Assembly: GCF_000238315.3 (NCBI RefSeq)
Contig: NZ_CP011924.1
Coordinates: 3,804,001 to 3,868,000 of the forward strand
Length of the DNA stretch: 64,000 bases
Direction of reading: 5' to 3'
Origin: Pseudoalteromonas piscicida
GTDB taxonomy: Bacteria; Pseudomonadota; Gammaproteobacteria; Enterobacterales; Alteromonadaceae
Position 1 is the stretch's first letter; every line of letters starts with the position of its first letter. The position numbers and the translations under genes were made by a program. The notes beneath the pieces were generated by a model that saw only the letters and a list, made by a program, of their open reading frames with translations, was not told the origin of the DNA and did not search any database. Positions 14,369 through 44,606 of the stretch are shown here, in pieces.

Positions 14369-14445
14369 TGGTGGCCCCACCTGGACTCGAACCAGGGACC
14401 TAACGATTATGAGTCGTGCGCTCTAACCAACTGAGCTATAGGGCC
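14369..14445 (-). tRNA. tRNA with CAU anticodon (Ile2 favoured over elongator Met)
   Basis: On the minus strand it folds as a full cloverleaf. The acceptor is GGCCCTA/TGGGGCC, the D arm GCTC/GAGC, the anticodon loop CTCATAA, the T arm CCTGG-TTCGAGT-CCAGG, and a genomic ACCA end is present. The anticodon is CAU. Acceptor pairs C4-G69 and C5-G68 are the positive determinants described for lysidine-modified tRNA-Ile2 (TilS) in E. coli, and the stem differs from elongator Met, so Ile2(k2C-AU) is favoured. Pair 27-43 is mismatched. An annotation of tRNA-Met would be defensible. It is the last element of a long repeat-bearing transcription unit. Confidence 0.93.
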
Positions 14446-14570
14446 ATTTTGTATTGTAAGTGCTCATTAAATTCATCCATGAAGCAATATCCTGTCGGCG
14501 TCCTGCCTCCACCTCATCAAGCTGCGAAGCGCTGCTTCGGTCTTGATTTGCCCAACTGAGCTATAGGGCC
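14446..14570 (-). repeat. Diverged 125-bp tRNA-5'-end repeat unit next to the tRNA
   Basis: Minus-strand reading starts with the same first 19 nt of the tRNA (GGCCCTATAGCTCAGTTGG), then leaves it for a different hairpin (ATCAAG...GAAGC/GCTTC...CTTGAT), and ends with the same ATACAAAAT spacer that precedes every copy. Architecture matches the 142-bp units but the middle sequence is unrelated. Confidence 0.8.
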
Positions 14571-16132
14571 ATTTTGTATTTTTGCGCGTTATATTCATCC
14601 ATGAAGCTTGGTTCCGGTCTCGGATTCAACACTCAGGGTCGCTGCGCTAATATCCCTTCGCTTCCTCGACGTAAACTTTCTTTGAAAGTTTACCCAGCTG
14701 AGCTATAGGGCCATTTTGTATTTTTGCGCGTTATATTCGTCCATGAAGCTTGGTTCCGGTCTCGGATTCAACACTCAGGGTCGCTGCGCTAATATCCCTT
14801 CGCTTCCTCGACGTAAACTTTCTTTGAAAGTTTACCCAGCTGAGCTATAGGGCCATTTTGTATTTTTGCGCGTTATATTCGTCCATGAAGCTTGGTTCCG
14901 GTCTCGGATTCAACACTCAGGGTCGCTGCGCTAATATCCCTTCGCTTCCTCGACGTAAACTTTCTTTGAAAGTTTACCCAGCTGAGCTATAGGGCCATTT
15001 TGTATTTTTGCGCGTTATATTCGTCCATGAAGCTTGGTTCCGGTCTCGGATTCAACACTCAGGGTCGCTGCGCTAATATCCCTTCGCTTCCTCGACGTAA
15101 ACTTTCTTTGAAAGTTTACCCAGCTGAGCTATAGGGCCATTTTGTATTTTTGCGCGTTATATTCATGCATGAAGCTTGGTTCCGGTCTCGGATTCAACAC
15201 TCAGAGTCGCTGCGCTAATATCCCTTCGCTTCCTCGACGTAAACTTTCTTTGAAAGTTTACCCAGCTGAGCTATAGGGCCATTTTGTATTTTTGCGCGTT
15301 ATATTCATGCATGAAGCTTGGTTCCGGTCTCGGATTCAACACTCAGAGTCGCTGCGCTAATATCCCTTCGCTTCCTCGACGTAAACTTTCTTTGAAAGTT
15401 TACCCAGCTGAGCTATAGGGCCATTTTGTATTTTTGCGCGTTATATTCATGCATGAAGCTTGGTTCCGGTCTCGGATTCAACACTCAGAGTCGCTGCGCT
15501 AATATCCCTTCGCTTCCTCGACGTAAACTTTCTTTGAAAGTTTACCCAGCTGAGCTATAGGGCCATTTTGTATTTTTGCGCGTTATATTCATGCATGAAG
15601 CTTGGTTCCGGTCTCGGATTCAACACTCAGAGTCGCTGCGCTAATATCCCTTCGCTTCCTCGACGTAAACTTTCTTTGAAAGTTTACCCAGCTGAGCTAT
15701 AGGGCCATTTTGTATTTTTGCGCGTTATATTCATGCATGAAGCTTGGTTCCGGTCTCGGATTCAACACTCAGAGTCGCTGCGCTAATATCCCTTCGCTTC
15801 CTCGACGTAAACTTTCTTTGAAAGTTTACCCAGCTGAGCTATAGGGCCATTTTGTATTTTTGCGCGTTATATTCATGCATGAAGCTTGGTTCCGGTCTCG
15901 GATTCAACACTCAGAGTCGCTGCGCTAATATCCCTTCGCTTCCTCGACGTAAACTTTCTTTGAAAGTTTACCCAGCTGAGCTATAGGGCCATTTTGTATT
16001 TTTGCGCGTTATATTCATGCATGAAGCTTGGTTCCGGTCTCGGATTCAACACTCAGGGTCGCTGCGCTAATATCCCTTCGCTTCCTCGACGTAAACTTTC
16101 TTTGAAAGTTTACCCAACTGAGCTATAGGGCT
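14571..16132 (-). repeat. Array of eleven 142-bp tandem repeats, each carrying a tRNA 5' fragment
   Basis: The tRNA-like end GCTATAGGGCC recurs at 14560, 14702, 14844, 14986, 15128, 15270, 15412, 15554, 15696, 15838, 15980 and 16122, an exact 142-bp period. On the minus strand each unit begins with about the first 19 nt of the adjacent tRNA (one T-to-C change). A perfect hairpin (GTAAACTTTC-AAA-GAAAGTTTAC) follows, then a constant filler and an A/T-rich spacer ending ATACAAAAT. Copies are nearly identical and fall into blocks: CGTCCATG/CAGGG types at 14713-15138 and CATGCATG/CAGAG types at 15139-15990, while the outermost unit has CAGGG and a changed tRNA-like end. This indicates recent expansion or homogenisation. 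No open frame or spacer diversity; not CRISPR. Confidence 0.97.
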
Positions 16133-16141
16133 ATTTGCTGT

Positions 16142-30259: not shown

Positions 30260-30370
30260 TCCAAACAGATTTTCAAAGCTCCATATTTTAAGGGTTTAGG
30301 GATTAAATGTCAGGTAGTAAGTTGGCAATAATTTCCTTAAACCACACATGGCTTCAATTGTGTCGCGTCT

Positions 30371-30723
30371 TATACCAATTCGCTTACTTAAGAGATCTAT
30401 TTTGAAGCGAGAAAATCTAGCCGATAACCAGACGAAAATTTTGGTATTTAAACTGAACTCGGGATAAGAAGTAAGTTAATTCAATAGTTTAAAGGTTGCA
30501 GTATCACTTTAGCCTGAAGTTATTTCTAAATACAAGGCAAATTTGTGCGTCAATAGCTGGCCTATTGCAAGCAAATTTAACGCAGTAGTAAGGGATGACT
30601 GCTAGAGAACAAGTTGTTATCCCTAGTTCAGGTTATTTAGTTGCTCTAAATGAGAAATTTTTAACGCAGTTAGTGTCAGATTTACTCCTTCAAATTGAGC
30701 AACTAGTAAGACTAATTGGTATT
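30371..30723. mobile_element. MITE-like non-coding repeat element
   Basis: Begins TATACCAATTCGCTTACTTA and ends ACTAATTGGTATTA, giving terminal inverted repeats around TACCAATT / AATTGGTA. It has internal inverted segments (ACTGAACTCGGGATAAGAA at 30452 against TTATCCCTAGTTCAGGT at 30616). About 350 bp and no transposase; the 68-codon frame inside is spurious. Related motifs recur at 62160. Confidence 0.6.
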
Positions 30724-30751
30724 AATCTAGAGGTTAGGCTGCATACCACAC

Positions 30752-31744
30752 TTAATAAAGCATATCTCGTTGTTTCTCAGACAACTCATCGTGATCTTTG
30801 AATTGGCTTCTATATTCTTTTGGAGTAAGCCCTGTTATGCGCTTAAATGTCCGCCTAAATTGGCTGTCATCGTTATAACCTAAGTTATCGCTCACGACGT
30901 TGATTGTTTGTGATGTCAAAACCAAGAGCTCGCAGGCACGGTTAATCTTGATTTGCTCTATTAGCTTCAGAACGGTCATGTTGAGCAGCGTCTTGACCCT
31001 TCTTGCTAGTGTTCGCTCAGTTAAGTTCAAATGGTCTGCAAGGTTTGATACCGATAGGTCGCATGCGAGTGTCTTATCAACCCAATGAAATACTTTTTTC
31101 AATAACGGATCGTCAAGATAAACCAGATCCAAGTGCCTAAAGGGCAAATAGTCTAAATGTGGTCGAGGTAGTACTAAAAATTTGAATACATCTCGCGCAA
31201 CACTTTCTTCGAATTTATGTCGCATAAGATTATGGAATATTTGTAAATAGCCATTGGCGCCAGAAGTTGTAGCGTCACCATCAGGGTGATAAATACACGC
31301 TAAATGATTATTCCATTTTACTTTAGAAAAGCGTGAAGCCGCTTGATCCGTTAACCACCATGTAATCGTGGCTTTCGTTTGATTTAAGCGCCCAGACTCC
31401 GCGTGTAATGCGACGCCGGTGCAATATGACCAAACTTGCGTTTCGCTGGGTAACTTTTTTAGCTCGTTAATTAATCGCCCATAGGTAATAGGCAAGCAAT
31501 GGAGATCTGTACTTCCCCAAAAGCCAGGTAATAATATCGCGTCGTATTGATAGTCATTGATAACGTTATCGACGTTGAGCTTGATGTTGTGTGCGCATGT
31601 GACTTCAGTTTTCTCTAAGCCTACCCAAGATACCTCAAATGCGGGTTGAGATAGCCGATTATTAACGGTCTCTAATAAGTCTAAAAAGTAAAATAATCCT
31701 GCAGGCATGCAATGTGGGTATAAAAAAAGCCCAATCCTTATCAT
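30752..31744 (-). CDS. GlxA-type regulator: GATase1/DJ-1-like domain plus AraC HTH
   Basis: About 330 aa from the ATG at 31744 (MIRIGLFLYPHCMPAGLFYF), which opens the DJ-1/PfpI-like fold. The upstream ATG at 31804 adds 20 unconserved residues; neither has a clear ribosome site. N-terminal sensing domain about 1-190, then an AraC double helix-turn-helix (LNLTERTLARRVKTLLNM and INVVSDNLGYNDDSQFRRTF, ending GLTPKEYRSQF). Divergent from the RND pump gene and next to the isonitrile genes, so a plausible local activator. The ligand is unknown. Confidence 0.88.
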   Translation of the reverse strand: MIRIGLFLYPHCMPAGLFYFLDLLETVNNRLSQPAFEVSWVGLEKTEVTCAHNIKLNVDNVINDYQYDAILLPGFWGSTDLHCLPITYGRLINELKKLPSETQVWSYCTGVALHAESGRLNQTKATITWWLTDQAASRFSKVKWNNHLACIYHPDGDATTSGANGYLQIFHNLMRHKFEESVARDVFKFLVLPRPHLDYLPFRHLDLVYLDDPLLKKVFHWVDKTLACDLSVSNLADHLNLTERTLARRVKTLLNMTVLKLIEQIKINRACELLVLTSQTINVVSDNLGYNDDSQFRRTFKRITGLTPKEYRSQFKDHDELSEKQRDMLY

Positions 31745-31862
31745 TGTCAGAAACTGTCCGTATTTGGTCCAATTATGCAATGATACCACGTTTACGTTTT
31801 GCATACAATTTGGGGTGTAATGTTAATTTAGTGTGATTTTAATCCGACAGGGGAGTTCTATT

Positions 31863-34235
31863 TTGAGCATTGAAACTCAAATTGCATCTCAGCCAAGCAA
31901 AATGAAACGCTTTACTGAGCTGCTGATACGTTTTCGATATGTGGTTACGCTGATAGTCGTCGCCATTTGTATAGCCACAAGTCTTGGACAAAGCAGGGTT
32001 GGCTTTAGTAGTGACTACAGGTACTACTTTGGTTCGCCATCACCTGTGATTGCTGCGATGGATGAATTAGAAAGTGATTATGCACTTTCCGATAGCATCT
32101 ATATTTCTATTAGCCCTAAGTCTGGGGGAACTGTATTCGACAAAGCTGTGCTATCTGCTGTGTTACATGCAACGGAAGAAGCTTGGAAAGTTCCTTATGC
32201 GACGAGAGTTGACTCATTGAGCAATTATCAAAATACAGTAGCAAATGATGATGATCTTACTGTCGCGCACTTATTTAAATCTGAAAGTGAATTAATCGGC
32301 TCTAATATTGATTATATCCGTCAGGTTGCGCTTGCTGAACCTATGTTGGAAAACCGTATTGTTTCTCAAAATGGGGAACACACAGGTGTCAATGTGGTGC
32401 TAACGCTTCCAGGTAAGTCGCCGATGGAGACTTCTGAGGCCGTATCTGCAGTGAGAGAATTGGCTCAAGAGCTTGAAGCTCAGTACCCGGTAGAAGTTCG
32501 ATTATCTGGCGTACATATGCTAAACCACGCTTTTGCTGAGATAGGTATGCAAGATATCGTGAACATCATGCCTGTTATGTATATGGTGATGTTGGCGATA
32601 TTGCTGGTGTTATTCCGCTCTGTATTGCAGGTATTAATGACAGTTGCAATAGTGCACTTATCGACTATTACAACGATGGGAATTGTTGGCTGGCTTGGTA
32701 TCCCGCTTACGGCTCCATCTTCAATCGCTCCGACTATTATTCTGACATTAGCAGTTGCTGATTCTGTTCATATCATAATGAGTTTTGTTATTGCCAAACG
32801 CCGTGGTGTGAGCGATGCCGAAGTAATTAAAGAGTCAATGTCGGTTAACTTCTTGCCAATTTTACTGACTAGTTTAACAACAATTATTGGTTTTGTTGCC
32901 TTGAACTTTGCTGATGCACCTCCTTACCATGACTTAGGCAATATTACGGCGATTGGTGTATTTATTGCGTTTGTTTTATCGATCACATTATTGCCTTGCT
33001 TACTGTATATTTTACCAAATTGGATTAAGCAAAAAGAGCAAGACACAAAGTTTTCAGATAAAATTTGGGCAAAACTCTCTCACTTTATTGAAAGTAAATA
33101 TAAGACCGTCATTATTATTTTCTCTGCATTAACTATTGCTTTTATGATCCCTATTCCAAATCTTAAATTAGATGATAGGTGGGTTGAGTATTTCTCTGAC
33201 AAAACACAGTTTAGAAATGATGCAGACTTTGTTCAAAAAAATGTAACAGGATTATACAGTATTGAGTTTAACATTCAGTCTTTAGGCTCTCAGGGAATTA
33301 GTGATGCTGAATATTTAAATACGCTAGATGATTTTGCGAAATACTATCGTAGCTTTGATAACGTTTATAATGTGAGTGTCTTGACCGATACCATGAAGCG
33401 ATTGAATAAAAACCTTCATGGTGATGATCCAAGCTTTTATCGTATACCTGAAAATAAAGAGCTCGCTGCGCAATACTTATTGCTATACGAAATGTCACTA
33501 CCATACGGTCTAGATCTAACCAATCAGATCAATATGGATAAATCTAGCTCGAAGGTAGTCATTACGATGAAAGATGTTTCAACTAATGAGCTAAGAGAGG
33601 CGGCAGCTAAAGGCGAAGCATGGTTAAAAAATAATGCGCCAGCTTATATGCATGCGATTGGTTCAGGCGCTACGGTGATCTTTGCTCACCAGTCAGATGT
33701 GAATATTCAAGGAATGGTCACAGGCACATTATTATCTCTCATTATGATTTGTATTGTCGTATTTATTGCAATGCGTAACATCAAATATGGCCTTATTAGT
33801 GTATTACCTAATGTATTACCAGCGATCTTCGCGTTTGGTGCTTGGACGCTGTTAAGAGGGCAGGCCGGAATGGAAGTTTCTATTGTGGTGTCTGCAACAC
33901 TAGGTGTCATAGTCGATAACTGTGTTCACTTCATGATCAAATACTTGCGTGGTAAAGAGCAATTTAACCTTGCCCCTGCCGATGCTATTAAATACGCGTA
34001 TCAAAATGTGGGAAATGCATTGCTATTTACGTCAGTTACGTTAATTGCAGGTTATACCGTCCTAACTATGTCTTCTTTCTCGTTGAATAGTTCTTTAGGT
34101 TTGATGTCTGCGTTAACTGTGGTAGCAGCTCTATTAGTCATCAACATTTTACTTCCAGCGATCATTTTGTTTGTTGACCGTGCCGAGCAACGAGCTGCTG
34201 ATGAAAGATTGATCAACGCGCAACTAGCATCATAA
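31863..34235 (+). CDS. RND-superfamily (MMPL-type) membrane exporter
   Basis: About 790 aa. A TTG start at 31863 is chosen because AGGGGAG lies 8 bp upstream; a GTG at 31833 is also open, and an ATG at 31902 is possible. Two halves, each with one N-terminal helix, a large periplasmic loop and five further helices (VVTLIVVAICIATSLGQ; IMPVMYMVMLAILLVLF; LTLAVADSVHIIMSF; ATLGVIVDNCVHFMIKYL). This is the MMPL/SSD branch of RND pumps. Followed at 11 bp by a LolA-like protein and then a beta-barrel, suggesting a lipid or hydrophobic-metabolite export chain across the envelope. Confidence 0.9.
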   Translation: MSIETQIASQPSKMKRFTELLIRFRYVVTLIVVAICIATSLGQSRVGFSSDYRYYFGSPSPVIAAMDELESDYALSDSIYISISPKSGGTVFDKAVLSAVLHATEEAWKVPYATRVDSLSNYQNTVANDDDLTVAHLFKSESELIGSNIDYIRQVALAEPMLENRIVSQNGEHTGVNVVLTLPGKSPMETSEAVSAVRELAQELEAQYPVEVRLSGVHMLNHAFAEIGMQDIVNIMPVMYMVMLAILLVLFRSVLQVLMTVAIVHLSTITTMGIVGWLGIPLTAPSSIAPTIILTLAVADSVHIIMSFVIAKRRGVSDAEVIKESMSVNFLPILLTSLTTIIGFVALNFADAPPYHDLGNITAIGVFIAFVLSITLLPCLLYILPNWIKQKEQDTKFSDKIWAKLSHFIESKYKTVIIIFSALTIAFMIPIPNLKLDDRWVEYFSDKTQFRNDADFVQKNVTGLYSIEFNIQSLGSQGISDAEYLNTLDDFAKYYRSFDNVYNVSVLTDTMKRLNKNLHGDDPSFYRIPENKELAAQYLLLYEMSLPYGLDLTNQINMDKSSSKVVITMKDVSTNELREAAAKGEAWLKNNAPAYMHAIGSGATVIFAHQSDVNIQGMVTGTLLSLIMICIVVFIAMRNIKYGLISVLPNVLPAIFAFGAWTLLRGQAGMEVSIVVSATLGVIVDNCVHFMIKYLRGKEQFNLAPADAIKYAYQNVGNALLFTSVTLIAGYTVLTMSSFSLNSSLGLMSALTVVAALLVINILLPAIILFVDRAEQRAADERLINAQLAS

Positions 34236-34246
34236 GGAGAAATAAT

Positions 34247-35035
34247 ATGCTGAATTTAAAAAAGGTTTTTGTGGCAACTAGCTTGCTAGCTAGCTCGACA
34301 CTCACATTTGCAGCGAGCGATGAAGATAAAGGACTACAACTTGCCCAGCTGGCAGATCAAGTGGATTCTGGTTGGGTAGATCAAACCGTTGATATCACCA
34401 TGACGCTGCAAGACAGAGCGGGTAATCAAAATATCCGTAAGGTTAGAAATGAGATGCTTGAAGTTGAGGATGATGGAGATAAAAGTTTGGTGGTATTTGA
34501 TACCCCATATGATGTGAAAGGCACAGTGATGCTGTCGTTTAGCCATAAGGTTGGAGATGATGATCAGTGGCTTTACCTACCAGCGCTTAAGCGAGTAAAG
34601 CGTATTTCGTCTAGTAACAAGTCAGGCCCTTTTATGGGAAGTGATTTTGCATACGAAGATATGAGTTCACAAGAAGTTGAAAAGTATACCTACAAGTTTA
34701 TCCGAGAGGATGAATTTGAAGGCCAAGCGGTCAATGTTGTTGAGCGTACTCCGGTATATGAAAACTCAGGGTATTCAAAACAGCTTGTTTGGTTGGATAA
34801 AAAGCGCACGATTCCGCTTCAAATAGAATATTTTGATCGTAAAGGGAGTGCTTTAAAAACCCAGCATTTTAAAGGCTATCAGCTTTACAACGAGAGATTT
34901 TGGTGCGTTGACGATTTGCTGATGGTGAACCATCAAAAGGGCACGCAAACTACGATTTCTTTTGGTAATTATAACATTAGCCAAGGAGTACGATTGACGA
35001 ATTTTGCACAAGCAAACTTGTCACGTATTAGGTAA
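34247..35035 (+). CDS. LolA-like outer-membrane lipoprotein-sorting protein
   Basis: 262 aa with a signal peptide (MLNLKKVFVATSLLASSTLT, cleavage about FAA) and a strong AAGGAGA site. The mature part has the COG2834 LolA/LolB-like half-barrel pattern: VDITMTLQDRAGNQNIRKVR, VVFDTPYDVKGTVMLSF, QWLYLPALKRVKRISSSNKS, GSDFAYEDMS. These proteins accompany MMPL pumps and are thought to shuttle lipophilic cargo through the periplasm. Function here is inferred from its place 11 bp behind the pump. Confidence 0.87.
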   Translation: MLNLKKVFVATSLLASSTLTFAASDEDKGLQLAQLADQVDSGWVDQTVDITMTLQDRAGNQNIRKVRNEMLEVEDDGDKSLVVFDTPYDVKGTVMLSFSHKVGDDDQWLYLPALKRVKRISSSNKSGPFMGSDFAYEDMSSQEVEKYTYKFIREDEFEGQAVNVVERTPVYENSGYSKQLVWLDKKRTIPLQIEYFDRKGSALKTQHFKGYQLYNERFWCVDDLLMVNHQKGTQTTISFGNYNISQGVRLTNFAQANLSRIR

Positions 35036-35047
35036 AAAACAATTGGA

Positions 35048-35065
35048 TGAGTGAGCGTTCACTCA
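35048..35065 (+). other. Intercistronic hairpin
   Basis: Perfect TGAGTGA / TCACTCA stem with a GCGT loop between the LolA-like and beta-barrel genes. No U-run; possibly an mRNA processing or stability element. Confidence 0.5.
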
Positions 35066-35087
35066 GCCAAGCAGCAAAGGATTAGAG

Positions 35088-36248
35088 ATGAAGTTAATAA
35101 TGATGCTGTTAGTCGGTGTGTTAACCACCTTTGCTTGTATTGCGGATGTGGACATTAGAGGTACTGCGAACTTCAGCCAGCGACAATATACGGATGCGCA
35201 ACCAGAGCACCATGAGAGTCAATCTTTGATTTTTATTGAGCCTGAAATATACCTGCCAATCAATACAAATTGGAGTGCACTTGCCAAACCTTATGCAAGG
35301 TACGACAGCCTCGGAGCTGCAAGACATCAGTTAGATTTTAGAGAGCTTAATCTGAGTTACATTAATGGTAACTTTGATGCAAAGATAGGAGTGAGTGAGG
35401 TATTTTGGGGCGTTACAGAGTCCCAGCATTTAGTTGATATTGTTAACCAGACAGATGTTTTAAGTAGTATTGATGGCGAAGATAAGCTCGGTCAGCCTAT
35501 GCTACAACTTAATTGGCTTCATGGCAGCGGTTCGCTGCAAATGTTTGTAATGCCATACTTCAGAGAGCGAAATTTTGCTAGCAAAGTACAGCGTTTACAT
35601 CCTGATGTTGTCATTAGTTCACAGTCTAAATATGAAGATAACCAAGAAAATAGCCATACAGATTTCGCATTGAGAGCGACAAATTCTTTTGATAGTTGGG
35701 AGCTTGCCGCTTCATATTTTATTGGTACAAACCGTACACCGAGCATGCTACTGGAAAATGGCCACTATACACCTTATTACAGCCAACTTACCCAGTATGG
35801 ATTGGAAGTTCAGGGGGTTTTCGGCGGATGGCTGATTAAGAATGAAACCATTTATCGAAAAGGCCTACATGATTGGGCTATCGCGCATACTAGCGGTTTT
35901 GAGTACACACACGCAGGTGCTTTAGGTCAAGCAGATTTAGGTTATTTGGTTGAATATAGCTTTGATGAATTAGATGAAAACAGCACTTCCAGTTTCCAGA
36001 ATGACGTCTTTTTTGGGGTTCGAGTTGCAATAAATGACGTTTCTGGGTCTGAGTTATTGATCGGTGCCATTCATGATATTGACGCGCATCACTGGTCGAT
36101 GTTTAGAGTAGAAGGTAGTACACGAATAACTCCCGCTTTGAGATTAAGAACTGAGATATGGGTCGGGGATGAAACCAGAGAAAACGATCCGTTTTTTAGC
36201 ACGAAAAAAGATGACTTTATTCAGTTAAGTATTGAGTATTATTTTTAA
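35088..36248 (+). CDS. Predicted outer-membrane beta-barrel protein (DUF1302-like neighbourhood)
   Basis: 386 aa, signal peptide MKLIMMLLVGVLTTFACIA, AAAGGA site. Alternating polar and aromatic strands throughout (ELNLSYINGNFDAKIGVSEV, LQMFVMPYFRERNFA, ELAASYFIGTNRTP) and a C-terminal Phe in LSIEYYF, the usual outer-membrane assembly signal. MMPL pump, LolA-like and barrel trios are a known arrangement, so this is probably the outer-membrane partner. Closed by a terminator at 36320. Confidence 0.82.
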   Translation: MKLIMMLLVGVLTTFACIADVDIRGTANFSQRQYTDAQPEHHESQSLIFIEPEIYLPINTNWSALAKPYARYDSLGAARHQLDFRELNLSYINGNFDAKIGVSEVFWGVTESQHLVDIVNQTDVLSSIDGEDKLGQPMLQLNWLHGSGSLQMFVMPYFRERNFASKVQRLHPDVVISSQSKYEDNQENSHTDFALRATNSFDSWELAASYFIGTNRTPSMLLENGHYTPYYSQLTQYGLEVQGVFGGWLIKNETIYRKGLHDWAIAHTSGFEYTHAGALGQADLGYLVEYSFDELDENSTSSFQNDVFFGVRVAINDVSGSELLIGAIHDIDAHHWSMFRVEGSTRITPALRLRTEIWVGDETRENDPFFSTKKDDFIQLSIEYYF

Positions 36249-36319
36249 ATGTTAATTATTTAAATGAACATCCTGCAATATTAGTTATTTTCAATTTTAA
36301 AATTTCCCTTTTGATTTTG

Positions 36320-36341
36320 CCCCTTTTTAGGGGCTTTTTTG
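36320..36341 (+). terminator. Intrinsic terminator separating pump operon from isonitrile operon
   Basis: GCCCC-TTTTTA-GGGGC followed by TTTTTT. The remaining 36342-36495 is AT-rich and probably holds the promoter of the next operon, but I cannot fix its -35/-10. Confidence 0.85.
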
Positions 36342-36495
36342 TTTGTGATTAACATAATAAATATTTTGTAACAAAGTTGTTTATTGTGTTTATATCTTGT
36401 GTCAATAATTGGCTGGTTTTGGTCGGTAATTGCCATAAAAAAGGTTCTACGAAAACATACAATAATTCTATTATTTATTTAATGATGGAACCAAA

Positions 36496-37584
36496 ATGGA
36501 GTATTTAAATAAACTGGTTAGTTCAATAAATGCGCCAGTCTCAATATCGAATCTACAGCTCAACAATCGCGTTGTAATGGCACCTATGACTCAGGAAAGC
36601 TCTGTAAAGCATATTCCTGGTAAGGTGCAAGTCGAACACTACGGACAAAGAGCAAAGCATGGCGTTGGTCTCATCATTACAGAAGGAACCGTTATTCCGC
36701 ATGCATCTGCTAATGGACATTTCAACGTCCCGCTTATGTATTCGGAATCCGCACTGTCGGGTTGGCGCAAAGTGGTTAATGAAGTGCACCGCTTTGACAG
36801 TAAGATCTTTGCGCAGCTTTGGCATGTCGGTGGTGTAAGAGAAGCTGCAATGCCACCTGAAGTTGGTGTACCTGCAGTTACCCCCAGCGGACTGTCAGCG
36901 CCAAATATACCAAATGGCAAAAAGCTAACCATCAAGGAAATTGACGAGGTCATTGCTGCGTATGCAAATGCTGCTAAGAATGCACAGCTTTGCGGGTTTG
37001 ATGGTATTGAAATACATGCTGCCCATGGATACTTGATCGATCAATTCTTATGGCAAGCGACTAACTTACGAAGCGACCAATACGGTGGTGGGGCAAAAAA
37101 CCGTTATCGCTTTGCTGCAGAGGTCGTGACTGCTATCCGTGATGCGGTTGGTCCCGATTTCACTATCGGTTTCCGTTGGTCTCAATGGAAGATTCAGAAT
37201 TTTTCAGCGCGTGTTTTCCAATCACCAGAAGAATTAGCTCCTTTCTTGCAAACAGTTTCCGAGGCCGGTGTGGATGTTTTTCATACGAGCACAAGAAGGT
37301 TTTGGGAGCCTGGATTTGAAGGCAGTGAAAGGACACTGGCAGGCTGGACAAAAGCGATTACACAAAAACCTTGTATAGCCGTTGGGGGAGTCGGACTTGG
37401 TAATGACTTCTTGCTCGGTGGGCCGTCAAGCGCCAGTCAACATGTTTATGAAAGCTTGATCCGGGGACTAGAAGAAAATGAGTTCGACTTGATTGCAGTA
37501 GGTCGAGCGCTACTCGCAGACCCTGCGTGGTTTTCAAAATTAAATCAAAGAAGTACGCAAAATAATAACCATGTTTTGGCTTAG
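36496..37584 (+). CDS. Old Yellow Enzyme family NADH:flavin oxidoreductase
   Basis: 362 aa TIM barrel. N-terminal LQLNNRVVMAPMTQESSV (FMN-binding), FAQLWHVGGVRE, EIHAAHGYLIDQFLW followed by RSDQYGGGAKNRYRF (the His pair and GGS/GGG loop of OYEs), TIGFRWSQWK and a C-terminal DLIAVGRALLADPAW. Reduces activated C=C bonds or related substrates with FMN. It opens the isocyanide operon (next gene 58 bp away), so likely acts on an alpha,beta-unsaturated isonitrile intermediate; that is inference. Confidence 0.9.
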   Translation: MEYLNKLVSSINAPVSISNLQLNNRVVMAPMTQESSVKHIPGKVQVEHYGQRAKHGVGLIITEGTVIPHASANGHFNVPLMYSESALSGWRKVVNEVHRFDSKIFAQLWHVGGVREAAMPPEVGVPAVTPSGLSAPNIPNGKKLTIKEIDEVIAAYANAAKNAQLCGFDGIEIHAAHGYLIDQFLWQATNLRSDQYGGGAKNRYRFAAEVVTAIRDAVGPDFTIGFRWSQWKIQNFSARVFQSPEELAPFLQTVSEAGVDVFHTSTRRFWEPGFEGSERTLAGWTKAITQKPCIAVGGVGLGNDFLLGGPSSASQHVYESLIRGLEENEFDLIAVGRALLADPAWFSKLNQRSTQNNNHVLA

Positions 37585-37642
37585 CGATATTTTCGCTAAA
37601 GCGCCAAGCATTGGATGAATAAGTTTATAAGGACTGAGATTT

Positions 37643-38629
37643 ATGTCAAACCAGAATGTAGCGGAGTTATCCCGTCAGATACTGCAACTCGTATTTCGTG
37701 AGCGAAAGTTGGTAGAGTCCGAAGTTTCGCAAGCGGACGAGAACCGTGAGTATTTAAGTGAAGATGAACTGTATCCTCACTTAGATAAAATAGAGCGGAT
37801 GGTCGCGAAGGGTGAGCCGATAACAATGGTATTACCGGCCTATCCGGGAAAATCACCAAATCGCAATAAAACATTGAGTAAATACCCTGATTTAGCCGAG
37901 AAGCATTCTATCGATATGCTTCATGTACTTTGCGACAGAATTGAAAAAATCTATTCGCCGGGTGTAAAGGTATTAATTTGTTCCGATGGGTATGTGTTCT
38001 CTGATCTTGTACGGATCCCCGATACAGACGTACATAGCTATACCGAGGCTATCAAAGAATATTACAGCAGCAATTATCCTACCCAATTTGATTTTTACGA
38101 CATTAAAGATGCCTTCCCCGAAATAAAATGTTTAGACGCGATGCGAGAAGAGTTAATGATCCGCTATGGTGAGTCATTGGTTAGTTTAACAAATCGCTCG
38201 CAAAGCGAAAAAGAAACTCGCTCCATGTATCAAGGAATAACTAAGTTCTTATTTGAGGATTTTCTTGGTTTAGTTGAGTTTGCTGGGGTGAGTAAAACTC
38301 AGGTACAAAAAGCAGCTAAGTCTACGGCCTTAAGGGTAATACTTCGAAGTAATGCTTGGAGTAAGTTGCTAGAAGTGAGATACCCAGAAGCCTTGAGATT
38401 ATCCATTCATCCACAATTTAGAATTTCGCAAAAAATCGGTATCAAACTCGCTAATTCAGCAGATTGCTGGCGCACACCATGGCACTCAGTCGCAGTACTG
38501 AAAAAGGATCAAATTCACCTTGCTCACAGAAATATGGTGAGCGAAAGCAGTCACCGATTGATGTTTAGTCAAGGAGCGCCAAGTCATTATGTTATGTCTT
38601 GGGAAAATGGAGCAGCAGCGCATGTATAA
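37643..38629 (+). CDS. Isocyanide (isonitrile) synthase, PvcA/DIT1 family, stand-alone
   Basis: 328 aa; ATG after ATAAGGACTG. Family signature LPAYPGKSPNRNKTLSKYPD, LHVLCDRIEKIY, VKVLICSDGYVFSDLV, and the C-terminal ALRLSIHPQ plus TPWHSVAVL. PvcA/IsnA enzymes convert the amino group of an amino acid (Tyr or Trp in known cases) to an isonitrile, with ribulose-5-phosphate as carbon donor. It overlaps the HAD phosphatase by 8 bp (shared ATGTATAA). A second synthase domain is present in the gene at 39279 and the two differ considerably, so they probably act on different substrates or steps. Confidence 0.92.
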   Translation: MSNQNVAELSRQILQLVFRERKLVESEVSQADENREYLSEDELYPHLDKIERMVAKGEPITMVLPAYPGKSPNRNKTLSKYPDLAEKHSIDMLHVLCDRIEKIYSPGVKVLICSDGYVFSDLVRIPDTDVHSYTEAIKEYYSSNYPTQFDFYDIKDAFPEIKCLDAMREELMIRYGESLVSLTNRSQSEKETRSMYQGITKFLFEDFLGLVEFAGVSKTQVQKAAKSTALRVILRSNAWSKLLEVRYPEALRLSIHPQFRISQKIGIKLANSADCWRTPWHSVAVLKKDQIHLAHRNMVSESSHRLMFSQGAPSHYVMSWENGAAAHV

Positions 38630-39269
38630 GCTCGCAATTTTCGATCTGGATGGCACCTTGATTGACACGCTCAGCAGCATCACCACTAGCGTCAATATTT
38701 TGCGCGGAAAAGGTGGGCTTGACGCTGTGGATCAAGACGTTGTTTTACCATTTATTGGTAAGGGAAGTGCAAACATGCTGCAAGCACTCTGTGGAACTTC
38801 TACTGGATCGTTACATGAAACTGTAGCTGCATACAACAAAGTATATGACGACAACCTATTCACTCAGCTCACTGTTTATCCCGGCATAGTGCAGTTACTT
38901 GAAAGCTTGCATGCACAGGGAGTGAAAACCGCAGTTGTAACCAATAAATATCACCGTCAGGCGCTAGATGTATTGGAGTACTGCTTTAAGTATTTCGCAT
39001 TCGATGCAATTCAAGGTGTCACCGATGAAACGCTCAAAAAACCGAATCCTACTCAGACTTTAAGGCTTATTGAAAAGCTTAGCGTTCAACCCAATGAGGT
39101 GGTGTTTATTGGTGACTCTGAAATCGATCAATGCACAGCACAGGCCTCGAATATTGATTTCAGGTTTGTTACTTGGGGATACGGTGTGGCAGAGCAGCTT
39201 AAGCTTAAAGCCGATGAAATTGTGAGTTCGGCTACAGAATTACAAAAATCAATTTTAAGAAGTGTTTAA
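38622..39269 (+). CDS. HAD-superfamily phosphatase (phosphoglycolate phosphatase-like)
   Basis: 215 aa from the ATG at 38622, which lies inside the end of the isocyanide synthase gene; earlier in-frame starts would merely extend into it. HAD motifs: I, FDLDGTLIDTLSS; II, VTNKYHRQ; III, Lys in LKKPNPTQ; IV, FIGDSEIDQCTA. Cap type 1. Relatives act on phosphoglycolate and small sugar phosphates. Tight coupling between two isonitrile genes suggests it removes a phosphate from a pathway by-product, since the isonitrile carbon comes from ribulose-5-phosphate. That link is a hypothesis. Confidence 0.92.
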   Translation: MYKLAIFDLDGTLIDTLSSITTSVNILRGKGGLDAVDQDVVLPFIGKGSANMLQALCGTSTGSLHETVAAYNKVYDDNLFTQLTVYPGIVQLLESLHAQGVKTAVVTNKYHRQALDVLEYCFKYFAFDAIQGVTDETLKKPNPTQTLRLIEKLSVQPNEVVFIGDSEIDQCTAQASNIDFRFVTWGYGVAEQLKLKADEIVSSATELQKSILRSV

Positions 39270-39278
39270 GAGAACATC

Positions 39279-41483
39279 ATGGAAATTTATAATTATATAA
39301 AAATAAACGATAAGGTTGCATTAGCAGGTCAGCCATCAGCACATGAGTTTGAAGTGTTGATAGCAAATGGTGTGAATTGCGTTATCAACATTGCACCATA
39401 TGACGAGCGTTATTCTATCGAGAATGAAGCTGAACTAGTTGAAAAGCTCGCTGCGACATATATTTATTACCCAATTGATTTTGCGAACCCAACTCTTGCC
39501 GACTTTGCAAAAGTAGAAGCATTGCTTTTGGATAACCAAGATAACAATGTGCTATTACATTGCGCTGCCAACTACCGAGCTTCGCTGTTATTTGGGCATT
39601 TTGCGATCCGCCACTTAGGCTGGAGCCGAGCAGAAAAAAATGCCTTAATCAATCAGATTTGGTCATTGGATGATTTCCCTGCTTGGAAGGTTTTAGATGA
39701 AAAGTTAGAGGCTGGATTAAACGATGATATTAATACGCGGGTAGCTGATGTTATCGAAAAGTACTTAGTACAAACTGGTGACGGTTTTGCAAAGCAGGGT
39801 CGAGCTGAGCTCGCAAAAGCTATTGCGGCATTTACGAGCCAAGACCAAGCAGTGCAGCTTGTGCTACCTGGGTTTCCTTGCAAATCACCAAATATAGATG
39901 CGAAATCATTTTCTAACTTACCAGATTATGGTGAGGTATTGGCCTTAGAGCGAATGCAGTCTTTGTGTGATGATATCCAAGATATTTATCCAGTTGGCGC
40001 GAAATTAACCATTATTAGTGATGGCGCAACTTTCTCAGATCTTGTTGGTGTCGATGACGCTATTATGCAGGAATACAATGCGGCATTAAGAACGTTAACC
40101 ATAACTCATGACATACAATGGGCAGATTTAACCGATTTATGTCAATTAGAAAAAGCAAACTCAGAGTATGACTCTGCTTATCTAAGAAAGCAGCTACTTA
40201 AGAATTTAACGACGAATCCCAGAGCACTACAAAATTATACTGATAAGGTTAAAAAAGATGCGCAGCTTCGCATCGAACATGATGATTTATGTAGCTACCT
40301 ATATAACGATGTTTGTCTTGTACATCTCTCACAAAATGATAGAGACGATTACTTAGCAAGCATATGCGATAAAGCCTACGAGATGATGTTTCGAGGAAAG
40401 GCGCTGACGCATAGCATCAATGAACGATTCTCAAACCATATCCGTTTATCAACGCACCGATACGACAATACAGGGCCAAAGTTTACTATCGCTTTGTCGG
40501 CGAACAATCAACAAGTGCTAGCACCTTGGCATGCTGTTCCTGTGATGCGTTTGAATGGCAATGTCGAGTTGATGCCGCATGCAACGGCTAAGGAGCTCAA
40601 TGTTGCTAATGTGACTTTCGAAAATAGCAACTGGATGTATATAGAAGTTTCAGAAGCGCGCTTTACAGCAATGCAGTTTGAAGTGCTGAAGTCACCACGT
40701 TTCGGACTGAGAATAAACCTACCTTCAGATATCACCTATCAAGAGTTGTCTCCTCAATTCCTCACGATGTTAAGTCAAGAATTTGGTTTTGTTTTACTAC
40801 CAAATGCAGGCCTTGAAGAAGAGCAGGAATTAGTCGAGTTAACTGCGCCTTTTGGTGAGATTTATCAATGGCAGTTTGGACCTGTTCACGTGGTGAAGCC
40901 TGAAGAGAAACCTCATGGATTTGTTCACTCCATTGAAAAAACACCATTACATTGGGATTTGAGTATGTTACCGCTCGATCATGAGCGTGTTATTGATAAT
41001 GAGCGTTTCTACGCATCAACCTTTTTACTTTACTGTAAAACAGCTGCGCAGCCCGGCGAAGGGCAAACAACGATTGTTGACAGCCGTAATGTGTTGAAGC
41101 TTGCAGGTCGAAAAAAGGTGAGAGAGTGGCAAGAAACAGAAGTTATCTATTCCACAAAGATGACTTATTTTGGCGGTGTGCCGCGCGTGTACCCTTTAGT
41201 GTTTGAACACCCAAAAAATGGTGAGTTATTACTGCGTTATCAAGAGGGTAGCGACTCTCAGTTGCAAACTTTTGAACTGAGTTCAGAGCAACTGGAAAGC
41301 AATGCATTTAATGCGCTGATCTCTGAAGTCAACGCATTGTGTTATGACGAGCGCTGCATGATTGCCCATGATTGGCAGGATGGTGACTTAATCATAGTAG
41401 ACAATCATTACACCCTACACGGAAGGTTGCCCATGACGGAGCTTTCGATGAACCGTGAAGTGTGGCGAGTGCAGGTAATTTAA
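39279..41483 (+). CDS. Trifunctional fusion: phosphatase-like domain / isocyanide synthase / PvcB-like dioxygenase
   Basis: 734 aa in three parts. Residues 1-150: a beta-lactamase-hydrolase-like/dual-specificity phosphatase fold (VALAGQPSAHEFEVLIANGV, and VLLHCAANYRAS with Cys95 and Arg100, a C-x4-R loop). Residues about 155-455: isocyanide synthase (LVLPGFPCKSPN, MQSLCDDIQDIY, IISDGATFSDLV, PWHAVPVM). Residues about 455-734: TauD/PvcB-type Fe(II)/2OG dioxygenase with His558-x-Asp560 (PLHWDLS) and His714 (TLHGR). The synthase and oxygenase together would form and desaturate an isonitrile, as PvcA and PvcB do separately. The N-terminal phosphatase-like domain is unexplained. Starts 9 bp after the HAD gene. 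Confidence 0.92.
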   Translation: MEIYNYIKINDKVALAGQPSAHEFEVLIANGVNCVINIAPYDERYSIENEAELVEKLAATYIYYPIDFANPTLADFAKVEALLLDNQDNNVLLHCAANYRASLLFGHFAIRHLGWSRAEKNALINQIWSLDDFPAWKVLDEKLEAGLNDDINTRVADVIEKYLVQTGDGFAKQGRAELAKAIAAFTSQDQAVQLVLPGFPCKSPNIDAKSFSNLPDYGEVLALERMQSLCDDIQDIYPVGAKLTIISDGATFSDLVGVDDAIMQEYNAALRTLTITHDIQWADLTDLCQLEKANSEYDSAYLRKQLLKNLTTNPRALQNYTDKVKKDAQLRIEHDDLCSYLYNDVCLVHLSQNDRDDYLASICDKAYEMMFRGKALTHSINERFSNHIRLSTHRYDNTGPKFTIALSANNQQVLAPWHAVPVMRLNGNVELMPHATAKELNVANVTFENSNWMYIEVSEARFTAMQFEVLKSPRFGLRINLPSDITYQELSPQFLTMLSQEFGFVLLPNAGLEEEQELVELTAPFGEIYQWQFGPVHVVKPEEKPHGFVHSIEKTPLHWDLSMLPLDHERVIDNERFYASTFLLYCKTAAQPGEGQTTIVDSRNVLKLAGRKKVREWQETEVIYSTKMTYFGGVPRVYPLVFEHPKNGELLLRYQEGSDSQLQTFELSSEQLESNAFNALISEVNALCYDERCMIAHDWQDGDLIIVDNHYTLHGRLPMTELSMNREVWRVQVI

Positions 41484-41495
41484 GGAATATATAAA

Positions 41496-42683
41496 ATGAA
41501 TAACAAAATGACATTTGAACAAATAGATAACAATATTGATGGAATTATTAATCAAATAGCTGCGGCGAGTGCAGATATTGAAGCACTGAGAAGATTACCA
41601 GAAAGCACGGTTACTCTGCTCAAAGAGACCGGTGTATTCAGTATGGCGATGCCAAAATCAATGGGGGGCGCTGAGCTAGATCCAATCAATCAAATTAAAT
41701 TGATTGAGAAAATATCTCGAGCCAATAGTGCGGCAGGGTGGTGCACTATGATCGGTTCAGACAGTGGTTACTTTGCAGCAATGTTACCTCAAGAGCTGGC
41801 AACAAAAACCTATCCAAACCCTCATGTCATCAGTGGTGCAGCTCTATCACAAACGGGTAAAGCGCGTAAAGTTGCGGGCGGTTATATGGTAAGTGGTCGC
41901 TGGCCCTTTGTCAGTGGTTGTAATAATGCTGAGTGGTTGATTGCGGGTTGTAAGGTGTATGACGGTGAAGACATGGTGTTACTAGAGGGAGATATTCCGC
42001 AAACACTGCAATGTTTTTTAAATATGTCAGATCTCGAAATCCTTGATACTTGGCATGTGATGGGGCTACGGGGCACTGGTAGTAATGATGTCGCATTACA
42101 GCAAGAGATATTTGTGGCAGAAGAAATGACGTTTAGCTTCCAGCAACCAAGAAGTTTTCAGGATGGGGCGCTTTATCAATTCCCCATGGCCTTTATGTTT
42201 AATTTCTCTGCTGTACCGCTTGGGGTGGCACAATCTGCATTAGACTTTTTCCTTTCGGAAGCAAATAAGCCAACCAGGCAAGTGCATCAGGCAGGGCAAT
42301 TTTTAAAAGGCCGGGCATTAAAAGATGAATCTTTTGTACAAGGTGCAGTTGGCGAAGCGGCAACTAAACTTAGAGTGTTAAGAGCATTTTTGTATCATGA
42401 AGTTGAGCAAATCTGGTCTTTATTGAAGCAAGGTGAGATGCCTTCACCTGTGCAACAGGTGGCCTTTTTAGCTGCTACCACTGAAGTATTTAGTGGCTGC
42501 CAAGAGATTGTAGAAACGTTAGTTAAGTGTCGTGGTGGTTCGGCGGTTTATCAGGGAAACCCATTAGAGCAAGCGCTTCGAGACATCGTCACTATGAATC
42601 AACACGCCATGACATCGCCGCGTAATCAACATCAATTGGGGAGAGCCTTACTTGGTGTTCCTCCAGAGCAAATCTTACTTTAA
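41496..42683 (+). CDS. Acyl-CoA-dehydrogenase-fold flavoenzyme (possible group D monooxygenase)
   Basis: 395 aa, AAGGAAT site, 12 bp after the fusion gene. Fold features: LLKETGVFSMAMPKSMGGAE, RANSAAGWCTMIGS, SGRWPFVSGCNNAEW, DTWHVMGLRGTGSNDV and a C-terminal CRGGSAVYQGNPLEQALRDI. The HsaA/DszC/HpaB-like branch, which uses reduced flavin to hydroxylate carbon or nitrogen, fits better than a true acyl-CoA dehydrogenase because a clear catalytic base for CoA chemistry is not obvious. In this operon it may oxidise the isonitrile precursor or product. Substrate unknown. Confidence 0.85.
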   Translation: MNNKMTFEQIDNNIDGIINQIAAASADIEALRRLPESTVTLLKETGVFSMAMPKSMGGAELDPINQIKLIEKISRANSAAGWCTMIGSDSGYFAAMLPQELATKTYPNPHVISGAALSQTGKARKVAGGYMVSGRWPFVSGCNNAEWLIAGCKVYDGEDMVLLEGDIPQTLQCFLNMSDLEILDTWHVMGLRGTGSNDVALQQEIFVAEEMTFSFQQPRSFQDGALYQFPMAFMFNFSAVPLGVAQSALDFFLSEANKPTRQVHQAGQFLKGRALKDESFVQGAVGEAATKLRVLRAFLYHEVEQIWSLLKQGEMPSPVQQVAFLAATTEVFSGCQEIVETLVKCRGGSAVYQGNPLEQALRDIVTMNQHAMTSPRNQHQLGRALLGVPPEQILL

Positions 42684-42691
42684 AAGGTGCA

Positions 42692-42712
42692 ACCCGTATC
42701 CTTGATACGGGT
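42692..42712 (+). other. Intercistronic hairpin
   Basis: Perfect ACCCGTATC / GATACGGGT stem with a CTT loop between the flavoenzyme and class V genes; no U-run, so it is an attenuator or processing site rather than a full terminator. Confidence 0.55.
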
Positions 42713-42749
42713 CATCTCCTACACTTGTTAAAGAGCAAGGAGCCACGAA

Positions 42750-44198
42750 ATGAATTCGTTAGAAAACTACTTTTTTCCTTACCGCGAGGGAATTATAGGT
42801 ACAGAGCACAAGGTTTCTAGAAATAATCAGAGCAAGTCTTTAATTTATGCTGATTGGACGGCTAGTGGGCGATTATATGAGCCAATTGAACGCTATATAA
42901 GTCAAGAGTTAGGGCCTTATATTGCCAACACCCACACTGAATCCAATGAGACTTCTCGGGTGATGACTAAGGCATACCATGAGGCGCAAGATATTATCAA
43001 AGCGCATGTTAATGCGGATGATAATGACATCTTATTGTTTGCTGGAAATGGGTCAACAGCGGCTGTAAATAAGTTGCAGCGTTTAATGGCATTGAAAGGA
43101 CCCCGTGTTGGTGCCGAGCCCCTTCCTGTGGTTTTTGTTACACATATGGAGCATTACTCAAATCACGCTTCATGGCTGGCATGTGAGGTCGAAGTGGTTG
43201 TTATTCCTGCAGCTAAAGGTAAGCCAGCATCAGACTTAGCTGCCTTTAAACGTTTATTATCTGCATACGAGGGGCGTAAGATCATTGGTGCATTTAGTGC
43301 GGCCTCTAATGCATCGGGTGTATGTACACAACTCAGTAGCTTAGCGGCTTTAGTACACCAATATGGTGGTGTTTGTATTGCCGATTTCGCCGCCGCAGCC
43401 CCGTACCTTGAAATCAACATGCATCCAGAGCGGGACGAGTGTCGTTTAGACGCGGTTTTTTTCTCCCCACATAAGTTCTTAGGCGGTCCCGGTGCTTCAG
43501 GTGTGTTGATATTTAATAAAAATCTATATCAGCTAAATACGCCAGATCAACCCGGTGGTGGTACAGTGGAGTCTGTAGATAAACAGGGGAATCCTACTTA
43601 CATCGCAGACATTACACAAAGAGAAGATGGTGGAACGCCTGGTACATTGCAAGCTGTTCGTGCTGCTTTGGCCGTGGTACTAAAGGAAAAAATGGGAGTG
43701 AAAAATATTCTTGCAAGAGAAAAAGAGCTCAGGTTTTTACTTGCACAGCAGTTACGAGAAATTTCAGGCCTTCATATTGTCGAAGATCAACCAGTTGAAA
43801 AATTGGGTATTATTTCCTTCTTTGTTAATAACCTTGACCACAATGACATTGCTGAGGAGTTAGATAACCAATTTGCTATCCAAGTTCGAGGTGGGATCTC
43901 TTGTGTAGGTTATTATGCACATCATATTTTTAAGAAGGAATTTGAAAAGCTTGGATGTGGTGTAAAAAGTGCGACGCCAGCAGGCTGGGTAAGAATTTCG
44001 TTACACCCAACAATGACGACAGCAGAAATCAATGACATCGGCACTGCCGTTAAGGCTGTTGTAGAGCAGCTAAAGTCGAATAAAAAAGCTAGTAGCAAAT
44101 TGAGCACCGATAAGCTGATGGCTCTTCGTGAGGTGGAATTATTTTCGCCTACAATAAGCTGGAATAAACAGAATGAAGGAGTAGCAGTTGGTGTGTAA
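42750..44198 (+). CDS. Class V aminotransferase / cysteine-desulfurase-like PLP enzyme
   Basis: 482 aa with AAGGAGCC. PLP Lys in FFSPHKFLGGPGASG, phosphate-binding FAGNGSTAAVNKL, Asp in VCIADFAAAAP. Near the C-terminus RGGISCVGYYAHH places a Cys where group II cysteine desulfurases have theirs, so it could mobilise sulfur as well as transaminate. The last ~40 residues are extra and basic. Last gene of the isonitrile operon, 66 bp after the flavoenzyme. A role in making the amino-acid precursor, or adding sulfur to an isonitrile, is possible; sequence alone does not decide. Confidence 0.85.
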   Translation: MNSLENYFFPYREGIIGTEHKVSRNNQSKSLIYADWTASGRLYEPIERYISQELGPYIANTHTESNETSRVMTKAYHEAQDIIKAHVNADDNDILLFAGNGSTAAVNKLQRLMALKGPRVGAEPLPVVFVTHMEHYSNHASWLACEVEVVVIPAAKGKPASDLAAFKRLLSAYEGRKIIGAFSAASNASGVCTQLSSLAALVHQYGGVCIADFAAAAPYLEINMHPERDECRLDAVFFSPHKFLGGPGASGVLIFNKNLYQLNTPDQPGGGTVESVDKQGNPTYIADITQREDGGTPGTLQAVRAALAVVLKEKMGVKNILAREKELRFLLAQQLREISGLHIVEDQPVEKLGIISFFVNNLDHNDIAEELDNQFAIQVRGGISCVGYYAHHIFKKEFEKLGCGVKSATPAGWVRISLHPTMTTAEINDIGTAVKAVVEQLKSNKKASSKLSTDKLMALREVELFSPTISWNKQNEGVAVGV

Positions 44199-44309
44199 CC
44201 TTTATTTTTTCGTTATTATGGATGATGAAATAAGTTAAAATTTATCCTAAAGGTTTAGTTTTTTACGTCGATAACTAACCTGATCCATCAAAAAGTCAGG
44301 TAATCACTT

Positions 44310-44573: not shown

Positions 44574-44606
44574 AATCGGTGCTAGGGTCATTAGCACCGA
44601 TTTTTT
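44574..44606 (+). terminator. Intrinsic terminator between convergent genes
   Basis: Stem AATCGGTGCTA / TAGCACCGATT then TTTTT. The AT-rich 5' side may also serve epmB on the other strand. Confidence 0.9.

Follow-up and report, generated by a model that had tools for sequence, protein, structure and literature searches.

The chromosome of Pseudoalteromonas piscicida carries, in the 64,000 nt stretch scanned here (the window; NZ_CP011924.1, assembly GCF_000238315.3), an inserted block of about 13.9 kb that is probably a horizontally acquired cassette for isonitrile biosynthesis and export. Judged from the encoded proteins, an isonitrile is the likely product class. This one block encodes two non-equivalent isonitrile synthases (ICS1 and ICS2), an iron- and 2-oxoglutarate-dependent (Fe/2OG) oxygenase fused to ICS2, a DUF442 domain and a HAD phosphatase, together with three enzymes for tailoring, a regulator and a trio of exporter proteins. 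The six biosynthetic genes occupy 36496-44198, with the exporter trio and an AraC-type regulator in the same block. An earlier note on this DNA had described an isonitrile operon with two PvcA/DIT1-type units, one free and one fused, together with an Old Yellow Enzyme (OYE), HAD, PvcB-like, flavin and pyridoxal phosphate (PLP) enzymes. That run is real, and profile matches, predicted structure and conservation all support a two-synthase isonitrile operon. The note missed the N-terminal DUF442 as third domain of the fusion, the MMPL-LolA-outer-membrane-protein (OMP) trio with its AraC regulator, and the fact that the synthase pair is not rare (46 of 56 related loci). The features, in window coordinates, are as follows.

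30321..44238: inserted block of about 13.9 kb, the whole cassette inside (GC 0.413, against 0.442 elsewhere in the window)
30752..31804, minus strand, divergent: AraC-family protein, probable regulator (HTH_18 3.3e-21 in the S2755 copy, L144, which also has a DJ-1/PfpI match below cut-off)
31833..34235, plus strand: MMPL/HAE3-type RND exporter (PF03176 1.5e-35)
34247..35035, plus strand: LolA-like outer-membrane-lipoprotein-sorting protein (PF17131 1.6e-61)
35088..36248, plus strand: probable OMP, no Pfam match
36319..36334, plus strand: terminator-like hairpin and T-run at the boundary of exporter and biosynthetic genes (pattern match only)
36496..37584, plus strand: OYE, an ene-reductase (PF00724 2.1e-67; GTN reductase and OPR structures)
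37643..38629, plus strand: ICS1, free isonitrile synthase, on the PvcA/IsnA side of the tree (PF05141 1.5e-78; PvcA structure 3e59 1.9e-58)
38622..39269, plus strand: HAD phosphatase, phosphoglycolate-phosphatase-like, DxDGT motif (PF13419 9.9e-35)
39279..41483, plus strand: 734-aa fusion DUF442-ICS2-PvcB (profile; AlphaFold model, mean pLDDT 87.9)
39279..39725, plus strand: DUF442 domain of the fusion, residues 1-149, loop C95-A-A-N-Y-R100
39822..40601, plus strand: ICS2 domain of the fusion, residues 182-441
40713..41471, plus strand: PvcB-like Fe/2OG oxygenase domain of the fusion, residues 479-731
41496..42683, plus strand: acyl-CoA-dehydrogenase-fold (ACAD) flavin monooxygenase, HsaA/C2-HPAH/XiaF type (PF08028 1e-21)
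42750..44198, plus strand: class V PLP enzyme, SufS/selenocysteine-lyase-like (PF00266 8.6e-46)
44574..44602, plus strand: terminator-like hairpin of 12 pairs on the chromosomal side of the block end (pattern match only)

Both synthase units belong to the PvcA/DIT1 family, as the earlier note had proposed: a PF05141 search gives 264.5 bits for ICS1 and 211.7 for ICS2 against a cut-off of 26.4. Neither reaches the cut-off of 600 bits for NF045653, the L-tyrosine isonitrile synthase equivalog (224 and 113 bits). In a tree of 55 rows, some of which the program flags for long branches, ICS1 (21 rows, three of them the classic Pseudoalteromonas IsnA) and ICS2 (21 rows, three cyanobacterial) are split at a 100/99 branch, and PvcA and PIsnA place on the ICS1 side. 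The two share 23–36% identity within a locus (median 31%). At 28 columns one residue is conserved at 90% or more and is identical between the two groups (32 ICS1-side and 21 ICS2 rows), for example K70/K202, D115/D248, R252/R389, H256/H393 and H281/H418, and the window proteins keep these. Three differences are fixed: A66/G198, W239/L376 and S262/G399. ICS1 and ICS2 are not recent duplicates, given the low identity, the separate clades and the shared conserved residues, and the pattern argues for, although it does not prove, two active enzymes with different pockets. In addition, their distance matrices over 18 loci correlate (r 0.93, with none of 9999 permutations as high and no species-tree control), which suggests that the two have been inherited together.

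How widespread is this pairing? Profile searching of named species genomes gave 219 confirmed stretches, of which 80 (75 loci) were kept; the survey covered the 56 loci whose fusion matches were good (L003-L058). The order ICS1-HAD-ICS2-PvcB is found in 35 and a truncated ICS1-HAD-ICS2 in one, while the full set is present in Pseudoalteromonas sp. S2755. The rest comprise three ICS1-DUF442-ICS2-PvcB, six ICS1-ICS2-PvcB and ten ICS2-PvcB alone, nine of these last being cyanobacterial and one (L008) beginning at a contig edge. ICS1 thus partners ICS2 in 46 of 47 non-cyanobacterial loci, L008 being the exception, and the pair spans eight named bacterial families in the tree. Both synthases occur with HAD, either between them or fused, in 37 of the 56. 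The earlier statement that known clusters usually have one synthase therefore undersells the arrangement, given these 37 loci, the paired I1/I2 synthases of the hapalindole type and a Pseudomonas corrugata core already in print. The core is widespread, while the DUF442-ICS-DOX fusion is rare and so is the accessory set. Several two-synthase cores without HAD (L046 and L055 from Chromobacterium, L052 from Xenophilus, L054 from Burkholderia D-99 and L011 from Pseudomonas Au-Pse12) are found near frames about 1030 aa long, which group with an AcrB-type protein of L011 (PF00873) and may encode a different exporter. In Pseudomonas frederiksbergensis 36C6 the core occurs twice (L014 and L015) on a single 'joined' contig, and both copies have the same layout of frames; assembly may have produced this.

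The block lies beside epmB, at a site that is occupied in different ways across the genus. Seventeen regions were fetched and ten hotspot regions aligned to the window: four are empty, G083 (S2755) has the same cassette, G075, G072, G045 and G046 have another, and G018 matches the right flank only. In the empty-site genomes (G034, G071, G040 and G098) the window-matching flanks, up to 30261-30320 and from 44236-44239, lie 45–92 bases apart. The exporter trio, the regulator and the six genes are absent or replaced in relatives. No tRNA was called between 24000 and 48000, and the block ends have no common word of 10 bases or more in direct orientation. PF05141 is present in 8 of 108 genus genomes. 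The neighbourhood comparison across Pseudoalteromonas that the earlier note had called for places the six-gene form in two of these, P. piscicida itself and the near-identical S2755, both in the epmB neighbourhood; a further five (G075, G045, G072, G046 and G054) carry another isonitrile cassette beside epmB. The eighth genome, G088 (S16_S37), has its synthase in a HAD-ICS2-PvcB fusion that lies on another contig; the 13 kb fetched of its epmB flank hold no synthase.

The alternative cassette, whose family matches were verified on G075 only, reads TetR, MMPL, LolA, OMP, a 538-aa PF04820 halogenase-like protein (7.8e-16), isnA and isnB, with HAD on the opposite strand. It shares with the block described here the epmB hotspot, a homologous MMPL-LolA-OMP trio and a HAD gene. 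In contrast, it has one synthase, a separate IsnB, the halogenase-like gene and TetR in place of AraC, and it enters between window positions 29888 and 29961 rather than between 30320 and 44239. Its gene content would predict a halogenated isonitrile. Across the two cassettes the exporter homologues are 41–42% (MMPL), 43–45% (LolA) and 30–32% (OMP) identical; the MMPL homologue lies near the head of the alternative cassette in the five other genomes, with the OMP homologue in the equivalent place. The trio has no match among the frames of L004-L077. The pattern suggests that the hotspot was entered twice, by cassettes with related export machinery, and recombinational exchange between the two cassettes is a possible alternative history. 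The G075 copy is at L139:2103-12661, with further copies in L141, L142, L147 and L149. With two isonitrile cassettes and homologous exporters at one hotspot, the sister strains can readily be compared for product, exporter and ecology.

The HAD phosphatase accompanies synthases in three forms: between them, fused, and on the opposite strand in the alternative cassette. Fusions of HAD with the second synthase are found in L004, L050 and six homologous proteins. Both Pseudoalteromonas isonitrile cassettes have it (this type in P. piscicida and S2755, the alternative in five of five), and no HAD match was found in ten hotspot regions without synthase, some of them truncated. Its substrate would be a phosphate by-product or intermediate, since the synthase reaction uses a sugar phosphate. 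Why does a phosphatase travel with the synthase, sometimes on the same polypeptide? This is a question for the synthase chemistry. Examples with HAD N-terminal to the synthase-oxygenase (HAD-ICS-DOX) are L154:8021-11462 (S16_S37) and L004:8329-11794 (Thalassomonas).

The PvcB domain keeps its metal ligands H558, D560 and H714, the carboxylate anchor R730 and the Trp partner. A proposed rule reads Leu and Cys at PIsnB positions 107 and 188 as PvcB-type, giving an isocyanoacrylate, and Lys/Arg with Asn/His as PIsnB-type, giving a vinyl product; single changes at these positions in PIsnB-Ah left the outcome unaltered (PMC9467999, as far as its available text goes). The window domain is mixed, with the PvcB-like Leu and a Gln that belongs to neither type, although it is an amide like Asn. 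Among 49 fusions, position 107 is Leu in 39 and Pro in 10, and position 188 is Gln in 44, His in two, Leu in two and Asn in one. As Leu with Gln fits neither class, the choice between isocyanoacrylate and vinyl product cannot be called.

The three tailoring enzymes, OYE, ACAD and the PLP enzyme, accompany the core in one of the 56 loci, that of S2755, and have no match within 4 kb of it, or in the frames, in the other 55, which bears out the earlier description of an unusual tailoring set. ACAD scores below the equivalog cut-offs of NF045629 (1.8e-47, 162 bits; cut-off 450) and NF045920 (1.6e-33, 116 bits; cut-off 650), and PF08028 together with the structural relatives Rv3094c (2.9e-54) and XiaF (6.2e-21) places it in the group D flavin monooxygenases (HsaA/C2-HPAH). 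Its place among HsaA and the C2-type hydroxyphenylacetate hydroxylases makes it natural to guess that it hydroxylates the ring of a tyrosine-derived unit. The scanned block genes include no flavin reductase to serve it. The PLP enzyme does not reach the TIGR01979 (SufS) cut-off (1.4e-39, 136 bits; cut-off 475). It keeps the Lys and Cys positions of a SufS-like desulfurase: K242 and C385, presumably the PLP lysine and catalytic cysteine, are invariant in 20 of 20 aligned sequences (that of the window and 19 others selected from a list of 120). The enzyme belongs to a very large family, with relatives at E 1e-40 or better in 67 of 345 family genomes, its own included, where the other relatives are remote (27 and 32% identity).

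From these parts a pathway can be proposed. ICS1 and ICS2 are each predicted to convert the amine of an aromatic amino acid, with ribulose-5-phosphate, to an amino-acid isonitrile; by analogy with PvcA and PIsnA the substrate may be tyrosine or tryptophan. The two synthases probably act on different substrates, or on two amines of one molecule. Acting in cis, the PvcB domain would desaturate what ICS2 makes, giving an isocyanoacrylate or vinyl isonitrile, the HAD protein, perhaps with DUF442, would remove phosphate from a by-product or intermediate, and the ACAD enzyme would hydroxylate the ring, a job that in paerucumarin is presumably done by the HpaB-like PvcC. The ene-reductase and PLP enzyme may trim the product, and MMPL-LolA-OMP is predicted to export it.

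Several observations weigh against this account. A terminator-like site separates exporter from biosynthetic genes, and HAD is missing beside the core in 19 of the 56 loci. OYE, ACAD and PLP could be a local add-on. Both synthases fall far below the NF045653 cut-off, so that tyrosine and tryptophan are only candidate substrates, and the correlated distances could come partly from joint transfer of linked genes. Finally, two synthases need not mean two isonitriles, because the second synthase of the ambiguine pathway, AmbI2, is functionally redundant (PMC4236562, available text).

Does the pair make one isonitrile or two? Both two isonitrile units and one that requires both synthases fit the data. 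A single isonitrile, with ICS2 (or ICS1) redundant, regulatory or a partner subunit in a heteromer, is possible although rather unlikely. The AmbI2 precedent and the near-constant company of ICS1 and ICS2 speak for it. However, the hapalindole-type I1/I2 are at least 78% identical (PMC4236562), against a median of 31% here, and ICS1 and ICS2 combine fixed differences with conserved residues kept in both. A di-isonitrile, as the earlier note had suggested, made by joining an ICS1 and an ICS2 unit or by converting two amines of one scaffold, is slightly less likely still. Two intact, non-equivalent synthases paired across eight families speak for it, yet the scanned block genes include no ligase, P450 or nonribosomal peptide synthetase (NRPS) to join units (one gene, that of the OMP, is without match), and the di-isonitrile xanthocillin has been proposed to require one ICS-DOX plus a P450 (PMC5974471, available text).

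The DUF442 domain invites a third reading, which we regard as improbable: the end product would be a sulfur compound, the domain acting as a rhodanese-like sulfurtransferase within the polypeptide that makes the isonitrile. It would convert the nascent isonitrile to an isothiocyanate, and the SufS-like PLP enzyme would provide the sulfur. A cysteine of that enzyme aligns with the Cys of the SufS RxGHHCA motif, which we take to be the catalytic one. The domain has the six-residue Cys...Arg loop and PTP-like fold of DUF442 sulfurtransferases; its loop is CX4R and lacks the CX5R signature of protein tyrosine (PTP) and dual-specificity phosphatases. Sulfurtransferase activity is proven for the DUF442 domains of CpSQR and of Blh, and the CpSQR loop, CRTGTR, which ends in an essential Arg, has the same length as the CAANYR of the window (PMC8533005, PMC5823870, available text). 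The loop is C[AV]ANYR in 13 of 13 proteins and CAANYR in three of three other loci. Two Pfam models with phosphatase names retrieved 31 loci: PTP-type loops of seven residues (such as CALGRGR, CSAGIHR and CWHGADR) occur in 12 and six-residue loops by the same pattern in 18 (five being repeats of the same genes), and L181 has CRTGTR.

On the other side, DUF442 stands in the usual place of HAD in L011, L051 and L054, with no HAD match nearby, as if the phosphatase had been replaced, and these loci have no PLP match within 4 kb or in their frames. The Asp (D67) of a P-[VIM]-D-F motif, present in nine of ten aligned DUF442 sequences (Asn in L051), would suit acid catalysis; the CRTGTR-type relative has another loop and lacks the equivalent Asp. 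The closest Pfam models are phosphatase-named (PTP-NADK), with the window domain below cut-off and the metagenomic DUF442 fusions P0002 and P0010 above. We lean slightly towards a phosphate-related or structural role. A stand-alone DUF442 frame of 186 aa with loop CAANYR (L157, G435) may be a simple model for the activity of the domain.

Even less probable is the fuller version in which the fusion is a three-step line of synthase, desaturase and DUF442 sulfurtransferase with SufS-like persulfide supply, taking an amino acid to a vinyl isothiocyanate or isothiocyanatoacrylate while ICS1 adds a second isonitrile unit. There is a precedent for the chemistry in Burkholderia gladioli, where a rhodanese converts isonitrile to isothiocyanate (Mlotek 2024 and Dose 2021, via the available text of PMC12112954). 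In sinapigladioside biosynthesis, as here, an isonitrile is the substrate for possible sulfur transfer; RhdE is a rhodanese, whereas the P. piscicida candidate is a fused DUF442 domain of putative activity (PMC12112954). If true, the three-step line would be a bacterial pathway dedicated to isothiocyanates, in contrast to B. gladioli with its recruited rhodanese.

That OYE, ACAD and PLP are unrelated passengers is as improbable: they are unmatched near the other cores and PLP relatives are common in other contexts, but the three lie in one run inside one inserted block with spacings of 12–66 bp, and P0176 (about 50%), the best full-length relative of the PLP enzyme outside the genus, and an ICS1 relative (P0067, 60%) are both on 8644-long contigs, which is suggestive only.

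Elsewhere in the window, a 142-bp unit is repeated in tandem 11.2 times (99% matches) at 14547-16136, next to tRNA-Met (14369-14445). By eye the unit contains an apparent minus-strand tRNA 5' half; no tRNA was called in the array.

The cassette can be compared with three known systems. It does not fit the pvcA,B,C,D set of paerucumarin in Pseudomonas aeruginosa: PvcA, PvcB and an acyl-CoA-dehydrogenase-fold flavin hydroxylase (presumably PvcC) are common to both, whereas pvcABCD has one synthase and another hydroxylase family and is not known to include OYE, PLP or DUF442. A 2018 survey lists three synthase architectures, ICS, ICS-DOX and ICS-NRPS (PMC5974471, available text); DUF442-ICS-DOX and HAD-ICS-DOX are additional to these, and no description of either was found in the literature searched. 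The hapalindole, ambiguine and welwitindolinone clusters also combine two PvcA-like synthases (I1/I2) with one PvcB-like oxygenase (I3), but I1 and I2 are near-duplicates, I3 is a separate gene, and HAD and DUF442 are not named in the available text (PMC4236562). Also close is the P. corrugata core DIT1_1-gph_2-DIT1_2, PcoR/RfiA-dependent in a 2018 RNA-seq study whose available text gives no product (PMC5890197). It shares the free synthase, the phosphoglycolate-phosphatase-like HAD and the synthase-oxygenase fusion, and differs in its PcoR/RfiA regulation and, in the same-species locus L036, in having no DUF442, OYE, ACAD or PLP match. Such pairs of non-equivalent synthases, in most cases separated by a phosphatase gene, occur widely in bacteria, and we found no published product for this gene set; there are examples in Pseudomonas, Dickeya, Shewanella and Thalassomonas, without HAD in Chromobacterium and with DUF442 in Burkholderia. 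Beside all of these, the marine P. piscicida strain has the most elaborate version found here.

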